A DNA stretch of 64,000 nt from Methylobacterium sp. (GTDB taxonomy: Bacteria; Pseudomonadota; Alphaproteobacteria; Rhizobiales; Beijerinckiaceae), in NCBI GenBank assembly GCA_020252645.1, contig JADCCN010000012.1:5001-69000 (forward strand), given 5' to 3'. Shown piece after piece: positions 3,042 through 53,363 of the stretch. Positions within the stretch are counted from its first letter, which is position 1; every line of letters begins with the position of its first letter. A model generated the notes under the pieces. It worked only from the letters and a program-made list of their open reading frames with translations. It searched no databases and had not been told where the DNA came from. The translations under genes were made by a program, and so were the position numbers.

Positions 3042-3965
3042 ATGCTCGCCAACTCCTTCGGCATCGTCGCTCCCATTTTCGCGCTCATCGCCATCGGCTA
3101 TGTGACGGTGCGCACGGGGCTGATCGGCGGAAGCGCCGGCGAGGGCCTCTCCGCCTTCGTGTTCGTGCTGGCGATTCCCGCCCTGCTCTTCCGCACGGTG
3201 GCGACGGCCGACCTGCCGAACCTGAACCCCGCACCCTACTGGCTCGCCTATTTCATCCCGCTGGCTCTGGTCTGGCTCGCAGCCAGCGCCTTCGCCAGGC
3301 TCGCGGGGCGCGACCGCGCCGAACGGGCGGTGATCGGCTTCACGGCCGCGCAATCGAACACCGTGCTGATCGGCATTCCGCTGATCCTCGGCGTGTTCGG
3401 CGAGGCGGGCCGTGTGCCGATCGTGCTGCTGCTCGCCGTGCATCTCCCCGTCACGATGACCATCGTGACCGTGCTGATCGAGCGCGGTGGCGGGGCAGCC
3501 GCGACCGTGAAGCTCATCCGGTCGCTGGTGACGCACCCGATCCTGATCGGCATCTTCGCGGGACTTGCCTGGCGCATGACCGGCCAGAAACTGCCGGAGA
3601 TCCCGCTCTCCATCGTCACGTTCCTGAGCCAATCGGCGGCGCCCTGCGCGCTGGTGGCGACGGGCATGGGGCTGGTGCGGGTGAGTTTCTCGGGCTCGCG
3701 CCTGCTGATCATGGGCGTTGGCGCGCTGAAGCTGATCCTGCATCCGTTGCTGGTGTTCCTGTTCGCGAAGCATGTTTTCGTGCTGCCGCCGGTCTGGATC
3801 GGCGCGGCAACGCTCTTCGCGGCCTGCCCCTCGGGCATCAACGCATTTCTCGTGGCCGAGCGTTATCGCAAGGCCGAGGCCATCGCCTCGGGCACCATCG
3901 CGCTGACCACGCTGATCGCGGTGGTGACGACGACCTTCGTGGTGAGCGTGGTGGCCGCGCTCTAG
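3042..3965 (+). CDS. AEC family (auxin efflux carrier-type) transporter
   Basis: Hydrophobic 307 aa protein with AEC-type layout (MLANSFGIVAPIFALIAIGYVTVR; GFTAAQSNTVLIGIPL). Confidence 0.8.
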   Translation: MLANSFGIVAPIFALIAIGYVTVRTGLIGGSAGEGLSAFVFVLAIPALLFRTVATADLPNLNPAPYWLAYFIPLALVWLAASAFARLAGRDRAERAVIGFTAAQSNTVLIGIPLILGVFGEAGRVPIVLLLAVHLPVTMTIVTVLIERGGGAAATVKLIRSLVTHPILIGIFAGLAWRMTGQKLPEIPLSIVTFLSQSAAPCALVATGMGLVRVSFSGSRLLIMGVGALKLILHPLLVFLFAKHVFVLPPVWIGAATLFAACPSGINAFLVAERYRKAEAIASGTIALTTLIAVVTTTFVVSVVAAL

Positions 3966-4068
3966 AGCGGTCGCCGATCTGACTCGATCAGATCGACCAC
4001 TCTAAGCTATTGATTTACAGCATTTTCTTTCGACGAACCGGTATCCACTTCTTCGAAAAAATGCTCTA
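3963..4068. repeat. Mosaic hairpin element (TAGAGC...GCTCTA), ~106 bp, copy R1
   Basis: Two hairpins, terminal TAGAGC/GCTCTA, inner core GAACCGGTATCCACTT; termini coincide with the stop codons of both flanking convergent genes. Confidence 0.85.
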
Positions 4069-4899
4069 GCCGAACCCCAGTCGCCGGCGGATATCGCCAG
4101 CCGTCACCCCTTGCGCGCGCAGCTGGCGCAGGGGAGTCGAGACGGCCGATTTCGAAAGCTTCTTTCCCTCCTCGTCGAGGATCAGCGCGTGATGGTGATA
4201 GACCGGTGCGGGAAGGCCGAGGAGCGATTGCAGCAGCCTGTGAATGGCCGTGGCCGCATAGAGGTCGCGGCCGCGCACCACATGCGTGACCCCCTGCATC
4301 GCATCATCGAGCGCAACCGCGAGGTGATAGCTCGCCGGAACATCCTTCCGGATCAGCACGGCATCGCCCCAGATCGAGGGATCGGCGGGGATCACCTGCT
4401 CCGCGCCTTCTCCCGTCTCGCGCCAATGCAGCGGGCCGGAAAGCGTGGCGATTCCAGCGCGGCAATCGAGCCGCAGCGCAAATGGCCCCTCCCCCGCGCC
4501 GTGATCCCGGCATGTGCCGGGATAGAGAATCGCGCCATCGGGATCGCGCGGGGCATCCTCGCCCGCTGCCTTCTGGATATCCCCGCGCGTGCAGGTGCAG
4601 CGGAACACGAGGCCGTGCGATGCAAGCGAATCCGCTGCGGCTCCGTAGCGCGCGAATTGCGTGGATTGCCGGAGCACCGGCTCTTCCCAGGCGAGCCCCA
4701 GCCAGGCGAGATCATCGAGGCAATCCGCCACGAGGCTGTCCGTGCAGCGCGATGTGTCGATATCCTCGATTCGGATGAGGAATCGTCCGCCTTTCTCCGC
4801 CGCCATGCGCGCATTGAGCAGGGCCGAAAAGGCATGCCCCAGATGCAGGTGACCGTTGGGGCTGGGCGCGAAGCGGAAAACGGGTTGCATGCGAATCAA
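4066..4899 (-). CDS. gluQ: Glutamyl-Q tRNA(Asp) synthetase
   Basis: FRFAPSPNGHLHLGHAFSALLN HIGH-type motif, KLSKS motif, short (277 aa) GluRS-like protein without anticodon-binding domain. Confidence 0.9.
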   Translation of the reverse strand: MIRMQPVFRFAPSPNGHLHLGHAFSALLNARMAAEKGGRFLIRIEDIDTSRCTDSLVADCLDDLAWLGLAWEEPVLRQSTQFARYGAAADSLASHGLVFRCTCTRGDIQKAAGEDAPRDPDGAILYPGTCRDHGAGEGPFALRLDCRAGIATLSGPLHWRETGEGAEQVIPADPSIWGDAVLIRKDVPASYHLAVALDDAMQGVTHVVRGRDLYAATAIHRLLQSLLGLPAPVYHHHALILDEEGKKLSKSAVSTPLRQLRAQGVTAGDIRRRLGFG

Positions 4900-6932: not shown

Positions 6933-7250
6933 GAGCATCTTCAAGCACATCGGGCTTCGGACCGCGTGAAGAGCTCGTGTTCAAACACAGAGATCGGGCA
7001 TTTTCAAGCGAAGCGGGCTCCGGTTCGGGTCACGAAAATGTGACAAGACAAAGAGATCGAGCATTCTCGAGCGAAGCGGGAACCGGTTCTCGTGAAAGAA
7101 AATTCGTTCAAACAGAGAGATAGAGCATTTTGAAGCGAAGCGGGAACCGGTTCGAGTAACGAAAATGTGACAAGACAAAGAGAGAGCATTTTCGAGCGAA
7201 GCGGGAACCGGTTCGCGCGAAAGAAAATGCGATCAAACAGGGAGATCGAG
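6933..7250. repeat. Tandem array of ~61-64 bp hairpin half-elements (5 units) of the AAGCGGGAACCGGTT family
   Basis: Unit starts near 6933, 6996, 7059, 7123 and 7184; each has GCATTTT..GAAGCGGGAACCGGTTCG..GAAAAT. Confidence 0.85.
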
Positions 7251-7281
7251 CAGATGACAAAGCAGCATGGAGCCAGATCCG

Positions 7282-17346: not shown

Positions 17347-17526
17347 ATGACCATCGTGATGAACATCTCGATCGCGGCTGTGGCCGTGGTTCTGTTGCTC
17401 GGGCTCTACAACATGCTCAAGGGCGGCTCGCCCAACCGCTCGCAGCAATTGATGCGCTGGCGCATCATCCTGCAATTCGCAGCGATCATCGCCATCATGA
17501 CCGTTCTGTACTTCAGGCAGGGCTAG
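17347..17526 (+). CDS. Twin-transmembrane small protein (HIG1-like), 59 aa, below the ORF-track cutoff
   Basis: MTIVMNISIAAVAVVLLLGLYNMLKGGSPNRSQQLMRWRIILQFAAIIAIMTVLYFRQG*; upstream of the cob(I)alamin adenosyltransferase/etf block. Confidence 0.8.
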   Translation: MTIVMNISIAAVAVVLLLGLYNMLKGGSPNRSQQLMRWRIILQFAAIIAIMTVLYFRQG

Positions 17527-17627
17527 AGCTGCTCTCGCAAAAGTGGATGCCGGTTTTGCGTAACAAAATGCGACAAAACAACAAGACAGAGCACGGTTTT
17601 GATTCCATCAAAACGAGACGTGCTCTA
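17524..17627. repeat. Hairpin element copy R4a
   Basis: TAGAGC...GTGCTCTA with GCAAAAGTGGATGCCGGTTTTGC; shares terminal TA with R4b. Confidence 0.85.
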
Positions 17628-17731
17628 GAGCGGATGCCGATCTGACTGAACCAGATCGACCGCTCTATCTTTTTGTTATTGATCGCATTTTCTTCGATCA
17701 ACCGGCATCCACTTGCTCGGAAAATGCTTTA
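17626..17731. repeat. Hairpin element copy R4b (same subtype as R1)
   Basis: TAGAGCGGATGCCGATCTGACTGAACCAGATCGACCGCTCTA...GCATTTTCTTCGATCAACCGGCATCCACTTGCTCGGAAAATGCTTTA. Confidence 0.85.
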
Positions 17732-45170: not shown

Positions 45171-45274
45171 TGGAGCATGATGTGTTCAGACGGAAGCACA
45201 TCATGCTCTTATCTTATTATTATCGCATGCTTTTTTGTGAAAAATCGGATTCCACTTTTTCACAGCATGCTCTA
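45171..45274. repeat. Hairpin element copy R6a (same subtype as R3, inverted)
   Basis: GAGCATGATGTGTTCAGACGGAAGCACATCATGCTCTTATCTTATTATTATCGCATGCTTTTTTGTGAAAAATCGGATTCCACTTTTTCACAGCATGCTCTA. Confidence 0.92.
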
Positions 45275-45377
45275 GAGCACGTCTCGTTTTGATGGAATCA
45301 AAACCGAGCTCTATCTTATTGTTTTGTCGCGTGTTGTTACGCAAAACCGGTATCCACTTTTGCTACAGCATGCTCTA
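45273..45377. repeat. Hairpin element copy R6b (same subtype as R4a, inverted)
   Basis: TAGAGCACGTCTCGTTTTGATGGAATCAAAACCGAGCTC...GCAAAACCGGTATCCACTTTTGCTACAGCATGCTCTA; right TA lies in the CinA-like stop codon. Confidence 0.88.
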
Positions 45378-49033: not shown

Positions 49034-49323
49034 CAGAGCATTTTCCGATCTGATCGAATGGGATCGGATGCTCTAGAGCATGCTGTGAAAAAGTGGAATC
49101 CGGTTTTTCACAAAAAAGCATGCGATAATAATAAGAGAAGAGCATGATGTGCTTCAGTCTGAACACATCATGCTCTAGCTCTTTGTCTGATCGCATTTTC
49201 TTGACGCGAACCGGTTCCCATCCCCGCCTCCGCGGGGACATGCTTCGCTTGAAAATGCTCTCTCTTGATCTTGTCGCATTTTCTTGACGCGAACCGGTTC
49301 CCACTTCGCTTGAAAATGCTCTA
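49034..49323. repeat. Cluster of hairpin elements R7a-c (49034-49075, 49074-49177, 49176-49323)
   Basis: Shared TA junctions; R7b near-identical to R3; R7c has two GCATTTTCTTGACGCGAACCGGTTCCCA... units, one with an inserted CCCCGCCTCCGCGGGG hairpin. Confidence 0.9.
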
Positions 49324-52390: not shown

Positions 52391-53158
52391 ATGGCAGGTC
52401 TTCTGGCGCTGCTGGTGAAAACCGGCATCCCTTTGGATTCACGAGCGGAAGAGCTGGGTTTCTTCGATGCTCCCCCCAAGGCCAAGCGCCTCGGCGTGGC
52501 CTTCATCAGCACCAGCGCCTCCGATTGGGCCTTCTATCTGACGAGCGGCGCCAAGCTCGCGCCCTTCTCGGGCCTCGACAAGCCGGGTTTCCGCCTCCTT
52601 TACAGCTTCAGCACGAAGTTCCGCGAGCGCGACCCGCTGGTGATCGGCCGGTTCAACCGCTTCGCGGGCGGGCGCATCTTTCTCGGCCATGAGTGGCAGA
52701 TCGGCGCGCTCTCGATCTCGGCCTATGCCGGGCCAAGCCTCAGCCTCCACTCGCCGCGGGAGCGCGCGGTGACGCGCTACGAGGGACGCCTCGGAGCAGC
52801 CGCCATGATCGAGTTCTGGCAGAGCTGGAATAATCACCCCACCCTGCGCGATGGCTTCACCAGCGGCACATTGCTGGTGGATGCCGCGGAAGCCAGCGGC
52901 TTCCTGCGCCTGCGCCACGGATTTTCGACCGGGTGGCGCAATACCACGATCGGGCCGGAGGTTTCCTTCTCTGCCGGCAGGCAACGCAGCGTGGGCGGCG
53001 TGGTCGGTCGCGATTCCTGGCTCAAGATGCGCATGGGCCTCCATGCCAACGGGCTGAGTTTCGGGAGTTTCGGGCTCAACGGCTCGGCGGGCTACGAATG
53101 GCGCCGGAGAGAGCGCTCCTCGGCTTATGCCGAGATCACCGCGCTTTACCATTACTAG
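52391..53158 (+). CDS. BcsS-like / outer-membrane beta-barrel-type protein
   Basis: Alternating beta-strand pattern and BcsS-like layout; start uncertain. Confidence 0.5.
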   Translation: MAGLLALLVKTGIPLDSRAEELGFFDAPPKAKRLGVAFISTSASDWAFYLTSGAKLAPFSGLDKPGFRLLYSFSTKFRERDPLVIGRFNRFAGGRIFLGHEWQIGALSISAYAGPSLSLHSPRERAVTRYEGRLGAAAMIEFWQSWNNHPTLRDGFTSGTLLVDAAEASGFLRLRHGFSTGWRNTTIGPEVSFSAGRQRSVGGVVGRDSWLKMRMGLHANGLSFGSFGLNGSAGYEWRRRERSSAYAEITALYHY

Positions 53159-53260
53159 AGCATGCTGTGTTCAGACGGAAGCACATCATACTCTTATCTT
53201 ATTATTATCGCATGCTTTTTTGTGAAAAACCGGATTCCACTTTTGTGAGAGCATGCTCTT
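53156..53260. repeat. Hairpin element copy R8a
   Basis: Same subtype as R3 (inverted); left TA within the BcsS-like stop codon. Confidence 0.93.
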
Positions 53261-53363
53261 GAGCATGATGTGTTCAGACGGAAGCACATCATGCTCTTAT
53301 CTTATTATTATCGCATGCTTTTTTGTGAAAAACCGGATTCCACTTTTGTGAGAGCATGCTCTA
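53259..53363. repeat. Hairpin element copy R8b
   Basis: Near-identical direct copy of R8a; right TA within the photolyase stop codon. Confidence 0.93.

Follow-up and report, generated by a model that had tools for sequence, protein, structure and literature searches.

A miniature element of Methylobacterium that very likely inserts at TA within stop codons and regenerates them

The window, a 64,000-nt stretch of one contig of a Methylobacterium sp. genome (G000), carries near its left end two convergent genes, one for an AEC-type transporter (Pfam Mem_trans, 3.8e-34) and gluQ, for a glutamyl-Q tRNA(Asp) synthetase-like protein (tRNA-synt_1c, 3.7e-44), with a short palindromic element between them (Table 1). 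Read directly, the sequence across the transporter stop and into the element is ...gtggtggccgcgctc TAG agcgg...atgctCTAgccgaacccc. The open reading frames confirmed the preliminary description in placing the stops of both genes at the outer ends of the element. With both TA copies the element measures 106 nt, and the net insertion is 104 nt. A first similarity search returned 47 matches to it in its own genome; because the same family has dozens of copies there, the element is not a chance occurrence.

Table 1. Features of the transporter/gluQ junction and further element blocks at gene ends, in positions of the window.
Feature	Position	Strand	Remarks
AEC/Mem_trans transporter gene	3042..3965	+	Stop TAG at 3963-3965 is the element's left end; orthologues stop at the same codon
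Subfamily A element	3963..4068		TA + 102-nt core (3965-4066) + TA; multi-copy family with empty sites
Left TA copy	3963..3964		First two letters of the transporter stop; empty-site comparison and YTAR analysis
First hairpin	3963..4004		Fold; consensus pairs
Second hairpin	4019..4065		Conserved loop region AACCGGTATCCACTT; compensatory change in 4 consensus pairs; fold
Right TA copy	4067..4068		First two letters of the gluQ stop (minus strand); empty-site comparison and YTAR analysis
gluQ (glutamyl-Q tRNA(Asp) synthetase-like) gene	4066..4890	-	Stop is CTA on the plus strand at 4066-4068, the element's right end
Two-copy block	17526..17728		At TAG stop of a plus-strand gene; G010, G011 and G003 have TGA at the same codon, element-free (site 38)
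B + C block	45173..45376		Right end is the TAG stop of a minus-strand gene; relatives have the same TAG without element (site 39)
Two subfamily B copies	53157..53362		Second double case in the window; outer ends are both convergent stops; shared CTAG in element-free G011 and G003 (sites 40, 41)

Fifteen congeners with a readable junction retain the gene pair. In G011 (locus L011) and G003 (locus L013) the junction is element-free, and a single CTAG ends both genes, whose stops overlap by 4 nt (gcgCTAGccaaatcc and gcgCTAGgcgaagcc, respectively). The proposal that one CTAG would have ended both genes in the absence of the element is thereby supported. At this junction L015, from a more distant congener, shows an overlapping CTAA, and G009 carries a subfamily D element at the same CTAG. 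Separate stops with a spacer, the arrangement that speaks against a shared stop, were found in element-free G010 (an unrelated 64-nt spacer with TGA/TGA stops; L010 1431-1500) but not in G011 or G003, where CTAG is kept. By gluQ identity G010 is the nearest relative, with G011 and G003 more distant. Its spacer is best read, from the junctions compared here, as derived, because G011, G003 and G009 (around its own element) keep CTAG. It is rather improbable that the insert is instead ancestral and that G011 and G003 gained their compact CTAG when an older element was precisely excised or deleted. Occupancy could be old, since the G009 site holds another subfamily; that G009 element, however, differs from the focal subfamily A copy in subfamily and lies in the opposite orientation, and 67 kb of G011 sequence taken from around such sites showed no copy, the whole G011 genome holding just 6 core motifs, versus 202 in G000.

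The 102-nt core of the element comprises two hairpins with short inverted ends (GAGC...GCTC). The hairpins fold strongly (-34 and -47 kcal/mol on the two strands), and five consensus pairs across both of them show compensatory change. No Rfam family matched the element with a score close to its gathering threshold. For the 18 full copies that have no neighbouring copy, the flanks were CTAG (8 copies), CTAA (4), TTAG (3), TTAA (1), ATAA (1), and TTAT (1), so that 16 of the 18 conform to YTAR, against a CTAG background of 4.4%. Among 45 full copies, 27 are joined to an adjoining copy by a shared CTAG. A 4-bp duplication of CTAG was considered and rejected, as mixed sites such as CTAG...CTAA exclude it; because such sites occur, the flanks show, at the level of sequence, that TA alone is duplicated and that the G and the C belong to the element. 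The TA duplication put forward for the focal copy is thus supported across the family, by the YTAR flanks and the mixed sites alike. The element shares with MITEs a short, non-coding, multi-copy form with inverted terminal repeats (102-nt core, 148 copies in 864 kb) and a target-site duplication read from filled and empty sites (TA at YTAR), and it shares TA duplication with the IS630/Tc1-mariner group. Separately, a 44-nt block at a TAG stop (G000:C1:106687-106730, in L096), absent in G010, matches the first hairpin only; single hairpins may move alone or may be remnants.

We surveyed gene ends in 864 kb of G000 (28% of the genome; 800 kb in stretches plus the window), with genes called by our own codon-usage ORF caller (735 genes), on which the gene ends rest. 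This sample, in which 80 kb of contig C20 was partly chosen for known copies, contains 148 copies in 98 blocks, none of them inside genes. A stop codon lies at an element terminus for 46 gene ends (43 TAG and 3 TAA) in 42 of the 98 blocks, and four blocks end a gene on both sides; when contigs C12 and C1 and the window only are counted, the fraction of blocks with an element-borne stop is 38 of 81. Elements are found at 44 of 86 TAG stops and at 9 of 569 TGA stops. Occupancy of YTAR was 0.656 at stops, 0.338 within 60 nt downstream of them, and 0.09 at other intergenic positions (stop versus downstream, p = 2e-4; downstream versus other, p = 2e-7). No unoccupied 4-nt stop common to convergent genes is left in the 864 kb. 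Far from being an isolated accident, the transporter/gluQ case belongs to a pattern that the family shows across the genome. The window also holds two intergenic arrays of four copies each, at 6998-7253 and 49035-49321.

Convergent gene pairs hold more than their share of blocks (39 of 95, versus 116 of 730 gene pairs overall; Fisher p of about 1e-10), and blocks are also enriched directly downstream of stops. Together with the strong hairpins and some compensatory changes, these positions would suit a two-way terminator or a stabiliser of mRNA 3' ends between convergent genes, with selection explaining the enrichment at stops. We regard this as unlikely, since a scan of the element found no intrinsic-terminator pattern, G011 lacks the element at the same stops (32 element-free, 0 occupied) and has the genes intact, and the same stop holds different subfamilies and orientations in different species. 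Pneumococcal repeats of similar distribution, moreover, are interpreted as tolerated parasites in excerpts from PMC3049150. A terminator role is possible and is not needed.

For the 46 genes that end at an element, the terminal 130 nt served as queries in G009, G010, G011, and G003, which gave 131 comparisons. In 36 of these the relative's stop is likewise occupied by an element, and 92 are element-free. Of the 92 element-free orthologues, 85 stop at the identical codon (TAG 38, TGA 33, TAA 14), and a same-codon stop was found at 38 of 42 comparable sites. A terminal TAG would end any gene that entered the element in frame, and in a few element-free orthologues the stop is shifted by -1, 1, or 3 codons, as might be expected if elements inserted merely near gene ends, truncated or extended the gene, and supplied a new stop without striking an existing one. 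The same-codon orthologues and the existence of the shared CTAG where the element is absent largely refute that account, which we consider highly improbable. In the four double cases, the motif shared by the two genes in element-free relatives is CTAG (sites 11/12, 36/37, and 40/41) or CTAA (sites 20/21), and the codon implied before insertion (TA plus the next base) is TAG or TAA in 17 of 17 readable non-tandem cases. At 12 sites all element-free relatives have TGA at the stop; because TGA contains no TA, an earlier change of TGA to TAA or TAG must be assumed there. The stop codon may have changed before the element arrived, or the target may extend beyond TA. Sites 1, 13, 14, and 38 are of this kind, with an element-bearing TAG stop in G000 and TGA at the same codon in all element-free relatives.

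Where relatives are also occupied, the elements at a given stop can differ between species (sites 2, 4, 20/21, 31, 36/37, and 40/41), and at sites 3, 7, 11/12, 26, 30, and 38 the block in G000 consists of the single element of a relative with an added copy. Such nested growth is seen at sites 3 and 7, where G000 has B-A and G010 has A alone at the same stop, and at site 11, where G000 has A-B and G009 has A. Both the recurrence and the added copies are consistent with insertions that renew the target at each end, and independent hits or array turnover are each possible sources.

The empty CTAG junction, the same-codon gene ends, the YTAR flanks, the tandem blocks, and the enrichment at stops are all directly seen, and the most economical explanation of them is a non-autonomous element that is mobilised in trans, targets YTAR, and persists where it does no harm. 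We think it very likely that the family is a miniature transposable element of this type, with TA of YTAR as its target, and that hits on stops regenerate the stops. The element would insert at TA within YTAR, best at CTAG, and duplicate the TA. Whichever strand a gene lies on, insertion into its TAG or TAA stop would leave the gene ending in TAG, because on both sides the element starts with G after the duplicated TA. A CTAG common to two convergent genes would be the extreme case, in which one insertion remakes both stops and sets the genes about 100 nt apart. Each insertion would also create a new YTAR-like site at both ends, so that the site would remain a target and blocks could grow as tandem arrays. 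A transposase acting in trans would supply the mobility, and the enrichment at stops would reflect target preference filtered by tolerance, with no host function, insertion at a stop being tolerated because no protein changes. More tentatively, and with doubt slightly outweighing confidence, we propose that stops have served as a safe, self-renewing target, such that in this one genome about half of the TAG stops and every recognisable CTAG or CTAA stop shared by convergent genes may now be element ends.

Pfam searches of G000 found no IS630 (PF13358), IS5-type (PF01609, PF13586), or Y1 (PF01797) transposase, and the ends of the transposase loci in relatives do not match the element. An autonomous element with matching ends, as might accompany a MITE, was thus found neither in G000 for these four Pfam families nor at the relatives' transposase loci. 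Work by Tenzen and Ohtsubo from 1991 is said to give TA within CTAG as the target of IS630. The element has TA duplication and CTAG preference in common with IS630, but a DDE_3 transposase with the same ends was seen neither in G000, which lacks that family, nor at the two loci in relatives, whose ends are different. Kinship with REP/RAYT systems would call for a Y1 HUH transposase, and PF01797 is absent from G000. IS711 (IS6501) of Brucella also duplicates TA at YTAR and prefers palindromic repeats (PMC2266754); it has the same target and duplication as the element, but it is an autonomous 842-bp insertion sequence, and no such transposase was found in G000.

The RIME and Bru-RS repeats of Hyphomicrobiales resemble the element by description, being about 103 to 108 nt long, intergenic, multi-copy, and palindromic. 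RIME1, from work by Osteras of 1995, is reportedly about 108 bp long with two large palindromes, and the element, at 106 nt with two hairpins, agrees with that description. Bru-RS are intergenic palindromic elements of 103-105 nt (table in PMC2267715). No description of RIME or Bru-RS insertion into stop codons was found in the literature searched. The nearest precedent, going by excerpts of PMC3049150, comes from Streptococcus pneumoniae, in which BOX repeats encode the stops of 36 genes, without clear truncation, and repeats are enriched between convergent genes. BOX elements are like the present family in supplying gene stops and in convergent enrichment, but they differ from it in sequence and phylum. 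The general phenomenon is therefore already known from the excerpted account, because BOX repeats encode stops and gather between convergent genes; these excerpts contain no account of insertion into an existing stop or a shared CTAG. The literature searched yielded no description of insertion into existing stops as shown by empty sites, of the shared CTAG case, or of how large a share of TAG stops is affected. The proposed mechanism gives a simple, testable explanation for the accumulation of small repeats downstream of bacterial genes and at convergent junctions: the motif they target is seldom present in coding DNA and occurs in stops, and the first base of the element repairs the cut stop. 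The family also shows repeats altering the surroundings of stop codons and the spacing of genes genome-wide, and G011, nearly free of the family, offers with G000 and its 202 core motifs a natural before-and-after contrast for measuring effects on transcriptional read-through.

Of the 249 genomes sampled from the order, 110 contain the core motif AACCGGWWYCCACTT; they represent 58 of 111 genera, and a reversed control gave almost no hits. The family spans Hyphomicrobiales, with the stop association recurring in two other families. Whole-genome counts of the motif were 202 in G000, 50 in G009, 38 in G010, and 6 in G011; because the near relatives have 6 to 50, the family was probably amplified recently, in a burst, in the G000 lineage. 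At loci chosen by the core motif rather than at random and with blocks counted by eye, a TAG or TAA gene end lay at an element terminus in 9 of 17 blocks of G246 and 8 of 15 of G087 (another family); in G262, sampled in the same way, the pattern was weaker (3 of 19). Among annotated plasmid copies, none of those with gene annotation lay exactly at a stop, and this small sample gives no extension of the pattern to such replicons. The subfamily D consensus gave full-length alignments to Bradyrhizobium and Bartonella plasmids, and it matched S. meliloti pSymB over 32 nt at 97%, with partial matches in S. fredii.
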